DNA from: Sphaerolaimus hirsutus
Lineage: Eukaryota; Nematoda; Chromadorea; Monhysterida; Sphaerolaimidae
Direction: 5' to 3'
NCBI GenBank assembly: GCA_964036195.1
Contig: OZ038458.1
Location: forward strand, 20,225,832 to 20,289,831
Length of the DNA: 64,000 nucleotides
The position numbers and the translations under genes are program-made. Position 1 is the stretch's first letter; every line of letters begins with the position of its first letter. This document shows positions 1,115-61,300 of the stretch, in pieces. Below the pieces are notes generated by a model. It was given only the letters and a program-made list of their open reading frames with translations. It did not search any database and was not told the DNA's origin.

Positions 1115-4100
1115 CTGATCAAGCGACGCGAATGGTTCGTTGAATTGGTATATGTAAAGTTTTTACGATATTCATGCAGAGCTGAATATCTATCGGGTAT
1201 GTTTAGCTCCGAACTGAAGAAATCCCCACATTCGGTGAACCAAATTCCGTAAAACAACTCCGACCAACTTTCCAAATTTCAAACAAAAATAAAAAAATCA
1301 TCCGTGGAATGAGTATTTTTGCATAGAAATTCCAGCCCAAACATTGAATAAATACCACAGTTTTGCATCGAATCAACCAACCCTGAGCACTGCCTTTCTC
1401 TTCGCCGCCTTGTCGCGTTCCCTCTCTTCATACTCAGTGGCGCCCTTCCAGTCCAAGTCGGCGGCGGCGCGCTTCACCCGCAGTCTGCCGGCGGCGTCCA
1501 GCTGGTCGTCGTCGTGCGGCTGCGGCTGCGCGTCGCCGAGGTCGTGCATCATGGCCGGCTCGCCGTTGTCGTGCTCGTTGTCGCTGGCGGCCGTGTGGTT
1601 GGACACGGTCGAGTCGGGCTGCTGATCGGCGTTGGCCGGCGACGCGGCGCTGCGTTCTTGGCTACTGTTCAACGTGCCGTCGGCGTCGGCCTGGCCGCTG
1701 AGCGCGTGCTGCTCCAGCTGCTGCTGCTGAGTGCCGGGGGAGCGCCGTCTGGTGGCCGGCGAGCGTGACGGCCGCTCGGCACGCATCTGGGCCCCGCTGA
1801 GCACGCTGGTCGACCGGCGCCACCTACATAAATTCATGCGGAAGTTATGAATGTATCTGATGGGAATAGGGTTCAAACGATATGACTTTTCGATATCGAT
1901 AATCAATAATTTTCTGAAACTCGATATTCGATATCGATACACTTCACTACTACCCATAACACTACGATATGGTCCCTCGATATTCGATATTAAAAATGGT
2001 CGATATTCAATATTTTTCATAATTTTCGATAGCGATATTCAACATTTTTTCAAAATTTTCGATATCGATATTGGATATAAAAATAGTCAATATTCGACAC
2101 GACATATCGTGTAAACCCTAGATGGGAATCCACAAAACAGTTGATGCACCGACCGCCGGTGCCACGCGGCGTGGTTGTCCAGCTGCGCGGGGAAGTAGAA
2201 GGCCGTGTCGCACTCGTTGCACGCGTACGGCATGTTGGTGGCCACGCCGGGCGCGGGCGCGTGCTGCGCGTGCATGTGCCGCAGCAGCGGCGCGGCCAGC
2301 ACGAACAGCGCGCCGCACAGGTAGCAGCGCAGCTCGGCGCGACCGGCGAACGAATGCGTCACCAGATGCGACTGCAGCTCTTGGTGGCTGTCGAGGGTCT
2401 GCGCGGTCGAGGCAAAGGCGTTGTATCATATTAATGTATCACTGTATGCAAAAACCTTATTCAGGGGGCAGTCCCAAACCGTGCAAAATGTCATGTGTCA
2501 TGTAAAAGACCCTGTAAAATGTCATGTGTCATGTAAAATGCCCTGTAAAATGTCATGTGTCATGTAAAAGACCATGTTAAGTGACATGTGTATACAAATC
2601 TCATCCAAATTCAAATCCTGATACAACAAGATTTGGATACATGACATTTAACAGTGTCTTTTACATGACACAAGACATTTTACAGGGTCCGGGACTGGCA
2701 GCAGTTCGACGAACAAACCACCAACCAGCGAGCACAAGTAGCACTTCGTCTCGTCCGCATACTCGTCGGGCGGCGAGAACAGGAAGCACTTCCCTCGCGT
2801 GAGCTGCCCGCCCTGCAGCTGCGACGGCGGCAGCGGGTGAAGCGGCGGCGGCGGCGAGCCGGACCCCACCGTGCTGGCGGGGCGGCCGTTGGCGCGCTGC
2901 TCGCCGCCCGGCGACGTCTTGTCGTTGTTGGAGCTGAGCACGCTGGCGCTGCGGTCGCCGGCGGCGCCGGCGCTCGCACGGCCGGAGTCGCGACTTGCGC
3001 GCTGCGAATGATGCGGCATGGGAGGTAGAATTGGGCCCACACACGCTAGTTGACATCGACACCAAATGTCAACTGGTGTCGATCCCGATTCGAAGCTTGC
3101 TGACGAGCTGACAAACGACGTTCAAACGCCAGCTTTGAATTGGGAACGGAACCAGTTGGCATTTGGTGTCGATGTCAACTAGCGTGTGGGGGGGCCATTG
3201 TGACTGAGTCCCTTGTAGCTAGGGTTCAAACGATATATCGTATCGAATATCGAATATCGGATATCGACCATTTTTTAATATCGAATATCGAATATCGATA
3301 TCGAAAAATTTGAAAAAATATCGAATATCGATATCGAAAATTTTGAAAAAATATCGAATATCGATATCGAAAATTTTGAAAAAATATCGAATATCGATAT
3401 CGAATATCGACCATATTTTCGATATATCGAACCTGTATAATGTCCTTAATTGAGTTATTATTTTTGTTTTGAGATATTTGTGATTAATTTGATTTGCTTA
3501 TAGTATCTAAGTTGATGAGTAAAAGTAAAGTATTTAATGTTATCTTTGTTGGAGTGCTTACTCCACATTTCTTGTATTTGGTTTGGCCACATACCTACTG
3601 AACTACCTACCTCATATTTGAAGCCAGAAAATGCTGATATGCTGCTTTTTTGCAACATGCCCTTAAACAATTGGGTTATAAGTATGAATTGTTGTATCTA
3701 CCAATTTTTGTTTGTCTGATACAATTTGATTCGTCATGTTTTTTCTTCAGTTTTTTTCATTCTGACCATTGTAAACCTTGTTAAAATCAATTGTACTTTT
3801 CAGTAAAGAGATAATCAACCATGTTTGCAACCATATGACAATACAACATGCTGCTTGAAATATGCCTTGCTATACCAAAAGCTAAATATCGAATATCGAA
3901 AATATCGAAATATCGATATCGAATATCGACCATTTTTTAGTATCGAATATCGAATATCGATATCGAGGGTCCATATCGTATCGAATATCGATATCGAAAA
4001 TTTTGAAAAACTATCGAATATCGAATATCGATATCGAAAATTTTGAAAAAATATCGAATATCGAATATCGATATCGAAAATTTTGAAAAAATATCGAATA

Positions 4101-7100
4101 TCGAATATCGATATCGAAAAGTGATATCGTTTGAACCCTACTTGTAGCGGTGGCATATATTTACCGTATATTCACGAATAAGTCCCGAGGGGAGTTAATT
4201 TTTCGTTAGACTTTTATTTGGTTAGACGTGGGGTTATTTGAAGAATTCAGAAGTCAGAATACAAATTCCATAATTCAATGCTTAAAATCAATATTACTGA
4301 GCATCAGCTGCAAACTACCAATTTACATTTTTACGGAATACTTACAAAAAACATTTTTGTACACGTCACATATTTCCTACCCATCAAAGAAAGAGTTATT
4401 AGGGGATGGAGTTAATCAAGGGAGGATTATTCGAGACGGGAGAATTATTCGAGGGTCTTATTCGAAGGGAAGTAATTCGAAGACTTACTACTGTTGTTTT
4501 ATCACTTTTTAAAACATTGGTAAATTTTTGATATTGCACTAGAAATACTCCTCAAACTCAATATAAATATCTCTTGCGTCGATATCGTTCCAAAATTATC
4601 GACCTATAGACTTATCGACAACCACATAATCACATACAAATAACACACCTGAATTCCCACTTCATTGTGCGCGCCGTCCTCATTGTCGACCAGCTCGGAC
4701 TTGATGGGCTTCTCTGCCGCGCCGACGACCGCCGCCGAGCTGCTCTGCGCCGCCGACGACTCGCTGTTGTCGTGCAGCCGCGCGTCGACCCCCTCCCCGG
4801 ACGCGGGCGGCTTGGGGGTCTGATCGAGGGTTTGGGGTGGAGTTGTGTTTAATTGGTCGTGATGTTGTATTTTATAGAGCTATTAGTGTTGGAAAATTTC
4901 ATTCTCGAATTATCCCCCACCCGAGTTAGCACAGAAGAAAGTCATGCCTCCCATAGTATGAAAATAACCTGATCTAATGTGACTAAATAAATTTAACGAT
5001 GGAAGTGATGATGAAAATATAAAAAATATGAAAAACCTGCAGGGGTATCTTGAATTTTGACCCTCCGAGTGGTTGGATAGATAGCAAATCGCTCCTCCGG
5101 AGGGATAGATAGCTGAAAAATTTTCTGGGGGGGGGTTGGGGGGGGGTTTGGGGGGGGGTTGTGGTGGTTCGATATATAGGCTTTTTCGGGGCATAGAAGG
5201 AAGAAAAGGGAGAAAAATCGCTAAAAGTACGTGTAAAATAGCTCAAAATGGGTATACAAGAGCATATAGTACTTAAAATAGCTGAAAATAGGCAGTTAGA
5301 CGCATGAACCAGTGATTTTGGAGGTGAAAATCTATATATAGGTATGAAAAATAGCGATTTTGAGCGAAAATTGTGGTATAGTTTCTGAAAAATCGCTCCA
5401 GATAGGTAGATAGCTGAGCGATTTGGGGGGGGTTTAGGGGGTAGTAGCCCAAAATTTTGCCTCCGGGATAGATAGATAGCTGAGCGGCCTCCGGGATAGA
5501 TAGATAGCTGGGCGGTTTGGGGGGGGGGTAACCCCCCCCCCCAACCCCCCCCCATTCGAGACCCCTGAAAACCTGGTTTTAATTACCACCCCAACTTTGC
5601 TGGCGAAATATAATCGCTTTTAACCCCGGAGGCATTATGAGGAAATACGCCAAACAGAAAGTCTAATTAAATAATTAATAGCTTAAAAAACTGACCTGAG
5701 CGAGCGTCTTTCCATGGGTGGCCAATTTGTGAGCTGCAAGTGCATCGGCATCTTCGAACTTCCTGTCGCAGATGTTGCAAGTGGGGGCAACGGCGCGACC
5801 GCCAGCCCCACTTGACGACTGCGGGACGTAAGGAACCGACTGCAGTTTGCCGCGACAACAAACTTGATATTTATCATCTGATTTTAAAAAATCATTTGAA
5901 AAATAAACTTTTTTCAATTAAATTTTTTTTTCTTTCAAAATCGTACAAAGTTGTGTAAATATATGTAAATATAGAGCAAAAATATGTGTATTTATTCATG
6001 TTAAGTATCACATAGTGATGGAAAAAAACGTTTTCAACGACCACATTTAAAAAAACACCTTCTTTTTTCAAACACCTTCAAAAACACGAATCAACATAAA
6101 CAGGTATACACACTAGAGCGCACTAAACCAAACACACAACCCCCAAAGTGCCCCACCTGCGCGTGCCTATGCTTCATCTGCAAGTCGCGCTCGTGCATCC
6201 TGCGTCTGTGCGCCGCCAGCTCGCCGCCGGGGTACAACTGCTGCCGCTGCTGCCCCGACAGCTGCTGGTGCGGCGGCACGCCTGCCTGCGAGAACAGCGC
6301 TGCGCGCAGAGCTGGTGTAGTGCTGCGGGGGGTTGGTGGTTTGAGGGGGTGATTTATAGAGCCCACGTACACTAGTTGACATCAAAATCCGTGTCAACTA
6401 AAGTTTGACTTAATGTGTGATTTGATCCTATGTGAGCATAGTTATTTTTATATCGTGACACTTGATTTTCATTGTTTCTGTTAAGTATGATGCTTTTGTG
6501 TTATTTAGTTGACATTCAGTTGACATTTATCTCCGATGTCAACTACTGTGTGTGGCGCCATAAGGACAATCTGTGGGATAGACGATCTGGCGCTTTGTAG
6601 AGATTTTTACCACATTTTGATAATACAGCCGTGATATACGTGAAAAATTGAGCACCGAATTTATAGGAGCCACCAGAAAAAAATAAAAGAATTTAGGTCG
6701 TTATAGACATGGAATATGGTGGAGATCCTTGAGAACTGTCCGATCCGTAAACTATAAGATAGATAAAATATGACTATGCTGCCGCACTGACAATGGTCCG
6801 GCAGAAGCGACGGCGGCCGGCGGGAAGTAAGTTTGCGCGGCAGCGGCACGCGACTGCGCCCCGTGGATCCCATGCGCCATCTGCACGTGCTCAGTCAGCA
6901 GCAGCTCGTGCTCGAACGACCTGCACACAACAAATATAATGCACACAAAATTGTCTCTTGCATTTTGATTTTTTAAATAACGCGCTTTTAAAAACCGTTT
7001 AAAAACTCAAACTTGGATCCTTTTATCCTCGCAGTTTTCGGATACGAAAGTCAACTGTAACTGTACTCACATTCCACAGAAGGTGCAAAACACGACGTGC

Positions 7101-54878: not shown

Positions 54879-55043
54879 GTGCCAATCCCAGACCCTGAAA
54901 AGTGTTTAGTGTCAAATGTCATGTACAATGTCATGCAAAGTGTCAATTGTCATGACAAATGTAAAGTAAAGTGTCATTTGTCATGCAAAGTGCAAAGACA
55001 TTTGTCACTTTACTTTACACTTTACACGGTCTGGAACTGCCCT
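54879..55043 (+). mobile_element. CWG-family MITE upstream of NKCC exon a
   Basis: Ends GTGCCAATCCCAGACCCTG and GGTCTGGAACTGCCCT; CTG duplication at 54876-54878 and 55044-55046. The interior is made of TGTCATGCAAAG-like words. Confidence 0.75.
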
Positions 55044-55281: not shown

Positions 55282-55372
55282 CATGAGGCCGTCGCCGGAG
55301 CGGGTGGCGGCGGTGCGCAGCGCGCCCTCGGCCAGCCGCTTCCAGGTCGACAAGGTGGAGAGTCCCACCAAG
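55282..55372 (+). CDS. NKCC exon a: first SPAK/OSR1 docking motif
   Basis: ATG at 55283, then 30 codons to donor [14 protein letters not shown] is a perfect [S/G/V]RFx[V/I]xx[V/I/T/S] kinase-docking motif. ATG could be the initiator (first coding exon), or this exon could follow a CTAAT branch site and AGCAG acceptor; I cannot tell. The frame stays open upstream to 55058. Confidence 0.65.
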
Positions 55373-58300
55373 GTGAGCGGCGGGGGTAAGGGAATGCACG
55401 TTGCACTGGGGGTAGTTCGAGACCCTGTAAAAATCCTGTCAATTGTGAAATGTCATGTAAAGTGTGAAAAGTCGTGTAAAATGCCCGGGGAAATGGCAAA
55501 CGCTCTTTTGCTATTTTGCAGGGCTTTTTCTATGACTTTTGACACTTTGCATGACATTTGACATTTGACATTTTACAGGGCTTTTTACAGGGTCTGGGAC
55601 TGCCCCCTGGGATTAGTTCGAGACCCTGTGAAGGTTTCCTGTATGTCATGTAAAATGTCATGTGAAGTGTCAAAAGTCATTGAAAATGCCCTGCTAAATC
55701 GCAAACATACGCTTGCCATTTTGCAGGGCATTTTCTATGACTTTCCCCATTTGCTTGAAGTGTAAATATGTAACAGTCTATAAATTGCCCTTATTGGTAC
55801 CGGGAACAAAAATTTTGTCGCGTGCAAGCAGCCGATATATTCACTCGTTTTTTATACACTGGAAAATATACAATTATCGGTGTAGTTTTTTTAATCATTT
55901 CTACCGCACACTTAATATTTTACCTGACATTCTACGCGGTGCATAAAGGGCCCAGAACGACCACTTTATCAACAAAAAACGTCACTTTATCCACCCTCGA
56001 TCACTACCCACAATAGCAGGCCGCCGCGGTCGACGGCGACAATGTCGCAACTGTATCGGCGCCTGTTATTGACGCGCCATCGTCCAGCGCGGCGGTTGGT
56101 GCAGTCGGCGTGCTGGTGCCACTCCCGGACCCTGTAAAATGCCATATAAAGTGTCAAGTGTCATGCAAAGTGTCCAATGTCATGAAAAAAATGCCAAAAA
56201 GTGTCAAAATGCTCTGCAAAAGGGCGAATCCATGGCATTTAGTTCAAAAACATACTTTACGCTATAAAATGTTTTTTACGCCGTTTTACATGACTTTAGA
56301 CATTTTCCAGAGCATTTGACAGGGTCCGGGACTGCTCCCTGGGCAGCCAGACGGCAGAGTCTGTGGCGGCGGGCAACAAGTCTAACGGGGATGTGAGCGT
56401 GGGCAGATTCGCGGTCGAGGCCTCCGTGAAGCCGTCCAATGTGCACAAGTTGGACGACTGTGCGTTGGTGGAAACACTTACCGTATTCATTCTAATTGAA
56501 GAGCGCCGCTTTTTTGCATATACTTTTTCACCTGCCGTTCTACTGGAGGCTGCCGTTCTATTTGTATTGTTTTTACATATTTTTTCATTTTCATTCATTT
56601 CATTTCATTCATTTGTGTATGGCAAAGGTCCCCCACCCTTCCAAATCGGTTTTTCTGTAAACTCGTTTTTTCAAAACACATTTGAGTTCTAACTACTCTT
56701 ATAATTTGGGTTTTATCACGAAACTTGTGTATAATAATAGTCTCAATTTGTGTGCGCCGCTATACCGAAACAGTGCATTTTACCGGGAAGGCAACATCGA
56801 CTGCTAGAGTTTATATACTTTGAATAAACTAAAAATTATCTAAATGAAAACAAAATTTGATACACGGTCTGCGATTTTTATTTTTCAAATCTAAAAAGTG
56901 TACCAGTATAACCCGACCACATTAACGACCAAAATCAGAGCCACAATATTCCGCAACAGATTTGAGCACACTCGCAGATCGGCCGTCCGGGGCCAGTGCA
57001 GTGGCATCTAAAGCTGGTGTCGGCAAGTCGGTTCACTTCGAGATGGGCGACATGGAAAGTCCGGGCGAGCGCGACCCGCTCAGGTGACAGTCCCAGACCC
57101 TGTAGAATGCCATGTAAAATGTTGAATGTCATGAAAAGTATCAAACGTCATGTAAAATGCCCTGGAAAGAGCTACATATTTTGCGGGGCATTTTTCATGA
57201 TTTTAGACACTTTTCATTACGTTTGACATGTTTCAGGGCATTTTACAGGGTCTGGGACTGCCCCCAGGGAGAGACGAGAGTCGGAAACCTACAATACCTC
57301 GAACTTGAAGAGCTTCCGGTCAGTGCCGCCGCTTTATGATTTCGTCAGAAATTTTCGTGAAGGATCATAGCAAAGAATAGGCTCATTCATACTCAAAACT
57401 GGTAATAAATGTGACAAAACTGGATAAAATATTAGGACATATTCCTATACGTATTTATTTATACAAACTTGTCTTTGTGTAGCTGCGATGCAAATTGGCA
57501 GCAATTCATACAGGGTGCGGCAATTTAGACGGACCCCATAAAGTTTTGAATAACTTGTCACTGGGTAGTCGGATTAACGTCAAATTTTAGGTCAACATAA
57601 ACAACCAAATAGGAAAGGAGCCCTGAAAATATGGCTGCGATAGTTCCACTTGTTCACAAGTTATTCATGCGAACGCGTAATTGTCACTTTTTCACCACCT
57701 TGTGATATCGTTCAAACGGAATTGACTTCTCGGGACCGGGATCGGGATCGGATTGTTTTTTTTCAGGGGTTTTTTCTGATTTTATTTTCGCAGCTGCATG
57801 CCTAAATGCGTGCACGTGCACCACCAATTCGCTATGCCAATAAGGAAATCGGCGGGCGCTTGCGTAATTGGTCGAAAAGCTAGGTGGTGGAAAAGTGACA
57901 ATTACACGTTTCCATGAATAACTTGAGAATGAGTGGAGCTATCGCAGCCATATTTTTAGGGATCCTTTCCTATTTAGTTGTTAATGTTGACCTAAAATTT
58001 GACGTTAATCCGACTACCCAGTGACAAGTTATTCAAAACTTTATGGGGTCCGTCTAAATTGCCGCACCCTGTACATCATGTTACAATGCATACATGATGT
58101 ATCTTATTCCAGATGGGGGTATTTCGAGGGGGGTATATTTTTTCCACAGCTCGCTCAGTCCTGGGGGTACCAGCAGCATTGTACCTACAAACACAAAATC
58201 GCACCGAAACCTCCCAAATTTCTCCCCAACCCCCCAACCCCCCCCCAACCCCAGCAACGTGGAAACATTAGAACGAGTGCCGCACCTGGACCACTACCGG

Positions 58301-61300
58301 AACATGATGAGCATCGAGGGGGCGCTGGTGGCAACCCGGCCCACGTTGGCGCAGCTGCACGAGGACCAGACCGAGCTCGATTTGGAGGACGTCCATCCGG
58401 AGGTTGGTGCTGGGATTATTCAAAGCTGCCGCTTGTGCAGGATACGGGAGTGTTAGACATTAAGAATAGATTTTAAGTGTCTGAGAGTTATGTATCACTT
58501 TTAACGGACATATTCCGGACATTATGGAAGTTTTTTGGTATTTGCGAGTGATTTCATGACCAATTGGGCTACGATAGTTTGGCTCAAGTACCAAGCAACA
58601 CCCATAATGTCCGGAATATGTTCGTTGAAGGTGGTACATAACTCTCCGATACTAAGAGTTTATTTGTAATGTCAAAGGCTCATGTATTCTGCTCACTTGA
58701 CTGAGAGCGCGTTCCCGACTACTTTCAAAAGTCGATAACTCCAAAAAGTCGATTTCGAGAAAATGGCATTTTAAGTTTTATTTCCAATTCTCTGCCGGTC
58801 ATGCGTGTCCAATGGGTGCGCTCGCTGTCTTTCGTAAAGTTCCAGATTTTGATTATGAAGTTAAACATTTTTCGCCTCTGCACTTACCATATATTTCCAC
58901 AAAATGCATTTGGAAAGGAACTCCATAAGCGACTTTTAGAAGCTGACACCTCACGGGATTTCCACCTCTGTACGCTCCTCCTACTTAATACTGCTGGGCG
59001 TTTTGCCAAAAGCGACTATTTTGCACGTTTTATCTAAAAGACAAAACGCGCAACCACTGTCGCAATCATGTGACCAAAAAATTGGACACACGACCACGAC
59101 AACCCCCCATCCTATGCACCGGGGGCCACTGGTCGGGAACACCCCCTACCCTACATAAAAATACAATCCCAATATAGGAGGTAGAACCCTATATTGAGTC
59201 TAGGTGCAGACCCAAGTGGGTCTGACTTGAGCTCTGGCTGTCTAGGGAGCTGGTTTTATACTGGGTGGGTGACAGAGGTTAGAGCAGTTACACTAACACA
59301 GTGGGCGGAGCCTGCATGCAAGCTCTGCAAGAAAGCTGCTTTCAGGGGGCAGTCCCAGATTCTGTTAACTGCAAAGTAAGATGTCAAATGTCATGCAGTG
59401 TCAATTATAATGACAAATGCAAAGTAAAGTGTCAATTGTCACGCAAATTTAAGTAATAAAATATTCTTTTATTGATTGACATGACATTTGTCATTTGAGA
59501 TTTGACATTTTACTTAACACTGTACATGGTCTGGAATTGGCACCAGCTGGCTCTGTTTGGACATGTTTGCTGTGGTCTGGAATTGGCACCAGCTGGCTCT
59601 GTTTGGACATGTTTGCTGTGGTCTAGAATTGGCACCAGCTGGCTCTGTTTGGACATTTCAAATGCAAAGTCAAATGTGTAATGTAAAGTAAAGAGTAAAG
59701 TGTCAAATGTAAAGTAAAATGTGAAATGTAAAGAAAAGTAAACAATGTAAAGTCAAATGCAAAGTCAAATGTCAAATGTCAATTTAAATGACATTTTACA
59801 GGGTGCGTGACTGATTCTAGGGGTTCTCAGTCATCTGGGTTTTTTTCTGGGACCGAGCGTTCGCCGCGTATTCTTCCTTGTTGCGAGCTGCATTGAAATC
59901 CTTTTTTCCAAGCTCAAACTTCAACTGTTTTGTGTACGTCCGTGTTTATAAACGATAAGTTTTTCTATATATATATATTAGAAAAACTTGTAAACTCCTA
60001 GAAAACCCCATATAGTGAAAATGACACACAGACACAGTATTCATTTAGGTCACTACCCATATCCTATCACGCTGCATGCAGCCGTTTTACGTGCGTAAGC
60101 TATTGGCGATTTTCCTGTGGTCGTTTGGCAAAATCCCTTTTTGTATTTAATTTGCGTTGCCTCACTTCCATTGTTATGTTTTGGCTACCTGCCAACCCGC
60201 TGTTTTGACTATACTGGTGGCTGGCGCGAATATTGTTTTCGTTTGTTTGTTTATTTTTGGCACCTGTAGTAAATTTGAAAAGTGTTTTTGGAAAATTTAT
60301 GTATACAAGTTGAAAGCCCAAAAAATTTTGTCTTCACAATTGGCAGTGTAATATTAGGTATTATTTTGTCACTTGACTATCATTTACCATTTTTATTGTC
60401 ATTGTTTGTAATATTTACTTGTGAAGTTGAGACCGGCGAAATATAAACTTATGGCGAGATTGAAGTGAAATTTTGTGTGGCACGATTTTGTTCGTTGCGG
60501 TTCGACATTGCTGCTTTTCGTTACCGGGGTTCGCGGGGGTTCAGCTTTCAAGGTGTAGAATGCAGAAAAGGGGGTAAATTGCTATAAAAATGGTACATAT
60601 GGCCAAAATTAGCTGAAAACATGCTTTAAGACACGTGAAGAAACAAGAAACTTGAAAATGAAAATGGGTAAAAAGTCAGGTAAACTTTCTCCAAGATCGC
60701 TCTGGATAGCTAGATAGTGTAAGAGCGTTTTTACGATGGGAAAGACACCACCCCACAAAATTTTAGACAACCAAATGCAATAATAATTCACAGAATGTGA
60801 ACTGTTATGTGTTTTGTAAACTAAATTTAAATAAATCATCTCAGGTATTTTGGCGGTTTTTTGTAGCCTACGGGGCCTGTGCGGCACGCGCGGCCATGCA
60901 GTGGGCTGCGCAGTACCCCAACAGAGCACTGCATTGCAAGATCGACGCCACTACACTGGCAGACCGAGTTTTCCATGTTTATAGCGGTTGTAGTGCCCTG
61001 CACAATTTCGTTCCCTTATCCCCCATTTAATTGCTATTTCTGTGCGCCAATTCTATTTAAGTAAAGTTAGCTAAGTTATGTCTAGCTCAAATGTAAACTA
61101 CATTCCACGTGGCACAAGGTGAGAGGGGAATTTCACATTTTTCACTTTAAAATGCCGCGGCGCGACGTGCGGACACCTTTGAGGTCGCCGGCACACTGTT
61201 GTGACTTTCTGGGCGGTCTAATGCACATTCCACCCTCTACTTATCTTTGGGCAGAGGCGGAGACTGACGACTGATAGGTAGGTGGCCACCGGAAGCCAGG

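Follow-up and report, generated by a model that had tools for sequence, protein, structure and literature searches.

The intron at positions 57084-57267 of the window (the whole stretch of DNA that was analysed, 64,000 nucleotides of the Sphaerolaimus hirsutus genome) raises the question of whether a coding exon can acquire a complete intron in one transposition event. How new introns originate has long been asked, and the introner systems reported from animals are few (PMC9860276, in the portion available to us). A first-pass annotation had read the whole intron as a single transposon inserted into an NKCC gene. We find it very likely, from the sequence, that this is a new intron produced by a non-autonomous PIF/Harbinger-related (NuwaI-like) MITE that inserted at a CAG in a coding exon. 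It is very probably an introner.

The coordinates of the junction bear out the arrangement first described: exon d ends in CTCAG (...GACCCGCTCAG), the element follows, and after a second CAG exon e begins GGAGAGACGAG (Table 1). Removal of the element plus one CAG joins CTC AGG GAG AGA (DPLRERRES) and restores the NKCC frame, as had also been proposed. Read without splicing, the frame meets a stop 1 codon past the junction, and the nearest alternative in-frame GT-AG choice would lose 2 residues. The element plus its duplications is spanned by inverted arms of 97 nt that are 77% complementary. Exon e runs on in frame into the next NKCC exon, and residues 32-129 of the peptide joined from these two exons align with solved NKCC-type transporters in the PDB. 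Pfam AA_permease_N matches residues 24-69 of the NKCC joined peptide, in which the junction is residue 14; no Pfam or PDB match crosses the junction. The earlier statement that the intron separates two conserved parts of the NKCC tail therefore holds from exon e onward but not for exon d, an open frame for which comparison with PDB and Pfam found no homologue. Exon a contains an RFQV motif, which we take to be a mark of NKCC N-termini. The copy at 56116-56338 has 76% identity to the family consensus and sits between two NKCC open stretches (...GVL^GSQTAES...); it is possibly a second introner intron in this gene.

Table 1. Exons of the NKCC gene and copies of the element family in the window.
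Feature	Positions	Strand	Detail	Basis
Family copy outside the coding exons seen	54879..55043	+	CTG..CTG duplication	End-pair reading
NKCC exon a	55284..55372	+	Donor AAG/GTGAGC	Read from sequence
Family copy 3' of the exon a donor, in NKCC intron 1	55409..55606	+	CTG..CTG	End-pair reading
Second family copy in the NKCC gene	56116..56338	+	CTG..CTG duplication at 56113-56115 / 56339-56341	
Open frame containing exon d	56926..57083	+		Sequence reading
Left target-site duplication	57081..57083	+	CAG, final 3 exon bases	Sequence
MITE, 181 bp	57084..57264	+	Tips GTGACAGTCCC / GGGACTGCCCC	86% identity to 189-bp family consensus
Putative intron GT...CAG, 184 nt	57084..57267	+	Phase 2	Seamless in-frame GT-AG
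Right target-site duplication	57265..57267	+	CAG, putative 3' splice site	Sequence
NKCC exon e	57268..57318	+	Donor CCG/GTCAGT	Sequence, homology
Next NKCC exon (...LEDVHPE)	58255..58402 (provisional end)	+	Starts after CAG at 58252-58254	

Among 2019 candidates from a first look at the genome, 40 were scored for similarity, namely the NKCC copy and 39 others, with 79-85% identity in the better orientation. A genome-wide search for duplication-plus-tip boundaries returned 881 exact matches to CAG/GTG, 743 to CTG/GTG and 1698 to CWG/GGGG; reversed-pattern controls gave 0 matches genome-wide. When both ends were required and read on the GT strand (left duplication..right duplication), there were 567 CAG..CAG, 373 CTG..CTG, 174 CTG..CAG and 69 CAG..CTG copies, counts that include duplicated units. 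The same CWG thus stands on both sides in 567 + 373 copies, and the middle base differs in 243. In the loci that were read, identical CAG or CTG flanks were found for 56 of 86 candidate end pairs, some of these pairs being mis-joined ends. The family target is CWG, CAG being one form; the claim that the element targets CAG fits the NKCC copy and the CAG..CAG class but is too narrow for the family, which also uses CTG. Short, non-coding and present in high copy number, with inverted repeats and a short duplication, this is a MITE family.

A second MITE subfamily, with rows starting GTGGCAGTCCCAAGCCCTGTAAAGTG, shares target and tips and differs in its interior, and some of its rows resemble parts of larger duplicated units. 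It should also be noted that one gene-like stretch is present in five copies (L060-L063 and L071), each with a CTG..CTG element; the seeds of L060 and L062 lie 28,874 bases apart and those of L061 and L063 likewise, a segmental duplication.

A consensus built from 64 copies has a length of 189 bp, with arms of 94 bp (TIR sequence GGGGCAGTCCC), and is identical to its reverse complement apart from positions 2 (T vs G) and 4 (C vs G). The left tip is GTGCC in 59 of the 64 copies and the right tip GGGGC in 46, with orientation assigned by the tips themselves. However, among 67 copies of the GT and GG classes, GT stands at both tips in just 5 and GG at both tips in just 2, so the asymmetry is more than a product of orientation assignment. 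Median identity of copies to the consensus is 92%, and the group medians are close (0.916 for CTG copies, 0.921 for CAG copies).

To ask what the copies interrupt, the flanks of each were joined as though the element and one duplication had been removed. After removal of near-duplicates, 87 loci plus the window gave 42 CAG..CAG, 27 CTG..CTG and 3 CTG..CAG copies with usable flanks; since GT at both ends places L035/L068 and L082 in both CAG..CAG and CTG..CTG, these 72 peptides represent 70 insertions. Peptides were chosen by hand, 58 of the 72 being tested on the GT strand (7 CAG..CAG and 7 CTG..CTG were left out) along with a selection of 20 from the other strand. A match was counted as spanning at E <= 0.005 with >= 4 residues on either side of the junction. 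Of the 58 GT-strand peptides, 13 had such a match (12 in Pfam, 1 in PDB), compared to 0 of the 20 chosen opposite-strand peptides, which gave one non-spanning GDT1 match (Fisher p 0.03 for these hand-chosen sets). Spanning matches were obtained for 7 of 35 tested CAG..CAG peptides (ZP-N, cuticlin/ZP-C, laminin EGF, OSCP1, BCKDHA-like E1, Na/K-ATPase and PhzF), for 5 of 20 CTG..CTG peptides (guanylate-cyclase receptor kinase domain, OSCP1, GPCR, BCKDHA-like E1 and SVCT) and for 1 of 3 CTG..CAG peptides (cyclin Y). The PhzF match scores below its Pfam cut-off, and for laminin the Pfam table gave another stretch only, the junction being spanned in a gapless PDB alignment. Candidates that fell short of the threshold were a zinc finger (L045, E 0.007), L010 (E 0.01) and L073 (two matches at E 0.04). 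The 13 cases fall in 11 genes and involve one family, tip to tip, at what would be its splice boundaries.

PDB alignments run without a gap across the junctions of Na/K-ATPase, SVCT, cyclin Y, laminin, the guanylate-cyclase receptor and the BCKDHA-like CTG site; at the BCKDHA-like CAG junction one gap follows three residues after. Nine CAG..CAG cases were examined in detail (NKCC, ZP-N, ZP-C, laminin, OSCP1, Na/K-ATPase, BCKDHA-like, PhzF and cadherin), with frames fixed by the known peptide. In all nine a GT-AG intron can be drawn that rejoins the reading frame seamlessly, and reading through the element meets a stop 1-45 codons in. Codon periodicity around 44 GT/CAG copies was stronger on the sense than on the antisense strand (p 7e-5); around 23 copies of the CTG..CTG class neither strand was clearly favoured (p 0.15). 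The length of the spanning open reading frame did not differ between strands (p 0.22 and 0.95) and is uninformative as a coding test because both strands are open.

The mixed classes offer a further view of the would-be acceptor. If the target base were neutral, CTG..CAG and CAG..CTG copies should be equally frequent, whereas the former exceed the latter 2.5-fold (174 vs 69, p 1e-11). Of the 44 CTG..CAG rows printed with their sequence, 6 are one repeated unit, 2 are another and about 1/3 belong to the second subfamily; the CAG..CAG listing also contains duplicate pairs. Scaling the 174 to 150 for repeated units, with the 69 left unscaled, gives p 5e-8. Over all copies the right duplication has A as its middle base in 741 cases and T in 442, compared to 636 and 547 on the left, and an excess of A on the right is what one would predict if selection favoured an AG ending in a spliced element. 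The excess of CTG..CAG suggests later repair to AG. Together with the nine seamless cases and the GT-strand matches, this skew upholds the earlier proposal that one insertion can supply both donor and acceptor, on the understanding that splicing itself is deduced. The wider proposal of intron birth by a DNA transposon is supported at the level of the family, but the phenomenon is of a known kind (introners) and CTG targets give no AG.

Several other histories could produce parts of this pattern. The MITE may have entered an old NKCC intron later, replacing or filling it. Nested insertion does occur, as seen for the copy within NKCC intron 1 (55409-55606), and at one LGIC locus (L014) the Pfam match starts one residue before the junction, which was not counted as spanning and would fit insertion at an old acceptor too. 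However, each of the NKCC duplications lies at a splice site, with no other intron remnant present, and the same coincidence recurs in all nine detailed CAG..CAG cases, making a late arrival very unlikely. Alternatively, the exonic copies could be recent, unspliced insertions that break genes in the one assembled haplotype. The copies do look young by their identity to the consensus, and the BCKDHA-like gene (on C1) counts for less as evidence, since the exon of a paralogue with 46% identity is uninterrupted at the CTG site (G000:C2:16744934-16745137). Gene breakage is nevertheless hard to reconcile with spanning matches confined to the GT strand or with an acceptor-base skew that persists after scaling. 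Furthermore, the Pfam matches to OSCP1 in this genome comprise three exons, all at one locus, and this gene carries two copies, one CAG and one CTG. A pair of GPCR genes also has a CTG..CTG copy in common, with nearly identical open exons on each side (two substitutions in 300 bases upstream, none in the first 120 downstream) and elements of 96% identity outside gaps. We therefore consider it very unlikely that these copies simply disrupt genes. Harbinger-type excision can be precise, and precise somatic removal of the DNA, in place of RNA splicing, would account for seamless CTG junctions that lack AG. Nothing about DNA excision would favour the GT strand, though, or lead to a preference for A within the right duplication, and we give this explanation almost no weight.

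Copies at CTG targets are harder to interpret. In OSCP1, the guanylate-cyclase receptor, SVCT, the BCKDHA-like gene and the GPCR they lie in conserved exons, with 91-96% identity to the consensus. The CTG..CTG copies rejoin these exons perfectly only as GTG...CTG, i.e. GT-TG. They may instead be spliced at ordinary GT-AG sites nearby, with a few residues added or lost. Suitable sites exist in some genes: OSCP1 would lose six residues, a farther option in the guanylate-cyclase receptor would net +5 (44 element bases kept, 29 exon bases dropped), and the NKCC copy at 56116, which could be a GT-TG intron, could also be a GT-AG intron with its acceptor 9 nt further on, losing 3 residues. On the other hand, 17-21 residues would be added within conserved stretches of the guanylate-cyclase receptor, SVCT and both GPCR copies by the nearest GT-AG pair that keeps the frame free of stops, and no such pair was found for the BCKDHA-like site among donors at -30 to +60 and acceptors at -80 to +30, counted from the seamless positions. 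Read-through at these sites meets a stop 7-23 codons in. Shifted splicing thus seems to us a possible but rather doubtful account. We consider it about as likely as not that one element makes two kinds of intron, GT-AG at CAG targets and GT-TG at CTG targets, the latter removed by the spliceosome with the aid of the hairpin and representing a stage toward GT-AG. A right CTG that had become intronic would be free to mutate to CAG, turning GT-TG into GT-AG. Cyclin Y has a left CTG that is a leucine codon and a right, intronic CAG, the result expected of repair by a single T-to-A change. In the series we propose, cyclin Y would already have undergone this change, whereas OSCP1, SVCT and the guanylate-cyclase receptor would not.

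RNA folding gave mean energies of -116.8 (44 copies) and -115.8 kcal/mol (23 copies), with median z of -21.5 and -18.7 (20 copies per class, 40 shuffles). The NKCC element with its right CAG folds as a single hairpin (-98.9 kcal/mol, z -13.8). At the median, the outermost pair of the hairpin begins 4 bases in at each end. The donors GTGCCA and GTGACA deviate from GTRAGT at +5 and +6, and GTGCCA also at +4; no clear polypyrimidine tract is found in the element. In 61 of 65 folded copies the AG of an upstream ACAG takes part in base pairing. This ACAG lies 19 nt upstream of the seamless junction and was rejected as an alternative acceptor since the frame is lost with element donors at +0, +6 and +18.

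We propose that staggered cutting would duplicate the CAG at the insertion site, leaving the left CAG exonic (CAG/GT) and making the right one the 3' splice site (CAG/), with the GT donor supplied by the element. If GGGGC is the older tip, two substitutions to GTGCC would create the GT and leave four bases per end unpaired. The RNA hairpin would then present donor and acceptor side by side, with the competing upstream ACAG paired away. For a GT-TG intron, the near-perfect hairpin would likewise hold the ends together and hide upstream AGs.

A non-autonomous family presumably has an autonomous source. Of 163 DDE_Tnp_4 matches in the genome, the one locus read (L090) was rejected as a partner, its TIRs being unlike those of the MITE, and no transposase bearing the TIRs of the MITE was found there. 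L090 and the 162 further PIF/Harbinger-type copies include many of nearly equal score that have four in-frame TGA codons in common inside the matched region, which may mark an intron that went unrecognised. A separate observation concerns the mitochondrial contig (L089), in which ATP6 directly follows COX1 and blocks of ~200-300 bases are repeated after ATP6 (3600-4335). The best COX1 matches have 89% and 79% identity, and the named sequences among the 120 matches listed are insects at roughly 64-67%.

The family is useful for the study of intron origin: its copies are many, the contigs of the assembly are long, and there are built-in controls, namely CAG against CTG targets and the GT strand against the other. 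The two tip bases are a visible minimum change, one by which an ordinary hairpin MITE would become able to make introns. Should the CTG copies prove to be spliced as GT-TG, acceptor identity can relax, perhaps through RNA structure, and then be repaired.

Intron-generating elements were reportedly described by Huff et al. in 2016 under the names introners and introner-like elements. Judged by its sequence, the present family is an introner family. As described in the accessible parts of a 2022 survey, introners are mobile DNA with TIRs and TSDs that make whole introns in exons, with one splice site on the element and the other co-opted from the target duplication, so that mRNA length is unchanged; they were reported in two animal groups only (Gozashti et al. 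2022, PMC9860276). Our family resembles them, so far as those parts describe them, in TIRs, TSDs, whole-intron creation and the pairing of an element splice site with one from the duplication. Compared to the surveyed introners, again as those parts present them, it differs in that the duplication itself would be the acceptor, that CTG targets give no AG and that the consensus is a near-perfect palindrome. Neither 'Harbinger' nor 'MITE' occurs in the main text of the survey (PMC9860276, available part). In the mostly open-access introner literature searched, including that on copepods and crustaceans, we found no CWG/NuwaI-like type, no palindrome with a two-base asymmetry and no GT-TG class, and the term 'GT-TG introns' was not met in the literature searched for it, also mostly open-access.

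The closest transposons are those of the NuwaI group of PHIS (PIF/Harbinger-ISL2EU-Spy), which, in the available text of Han et al. (2015, PMC4482050), have a 3-bp CWG TSD, TIRs of 12-61 bp that usually begin GGG, animal hosts and autonomous members encoding a DDE transposase and a Myb/SANT protein. Going by that text, the CWG duplication and the animal host are shared with our family, which may also share the GGG start at one tip (GGGGC in 46 of 64 copies); its non-autonomous nature, 94-bp consensus arms and GTG at the other tip are not shared. For unusual introns in animals, the copepod Eurytemora affinis has non-canonical, apparently recently gained introns with GA or GG donors (Robertson 2017, PMC5714493, in part). 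The likeness, within that part, lies in apparently recent animal introns with unusual splice dinucleotides; the difference is that the donor here is GT and the odd site would be the acceptor (TG). On the GG strand of a CTG..CTG copy at L080 / L084, an open frame (...NTVTYQ^TPPLNPSYPS...CPYCHSACF...) has no Pfam match; were this frame coding, the copy would amount to a GG-AG intron of the Eurytemora kind. In euglenids, non-conventional introns have non-canonical borders and ends brought close by RNA secondary structure (PMC4770533 and PMC11170887, in the sections available). Unlike these, the introns proposed here keep GT and apparently prefer AG, which points to removal by the spliceosome.
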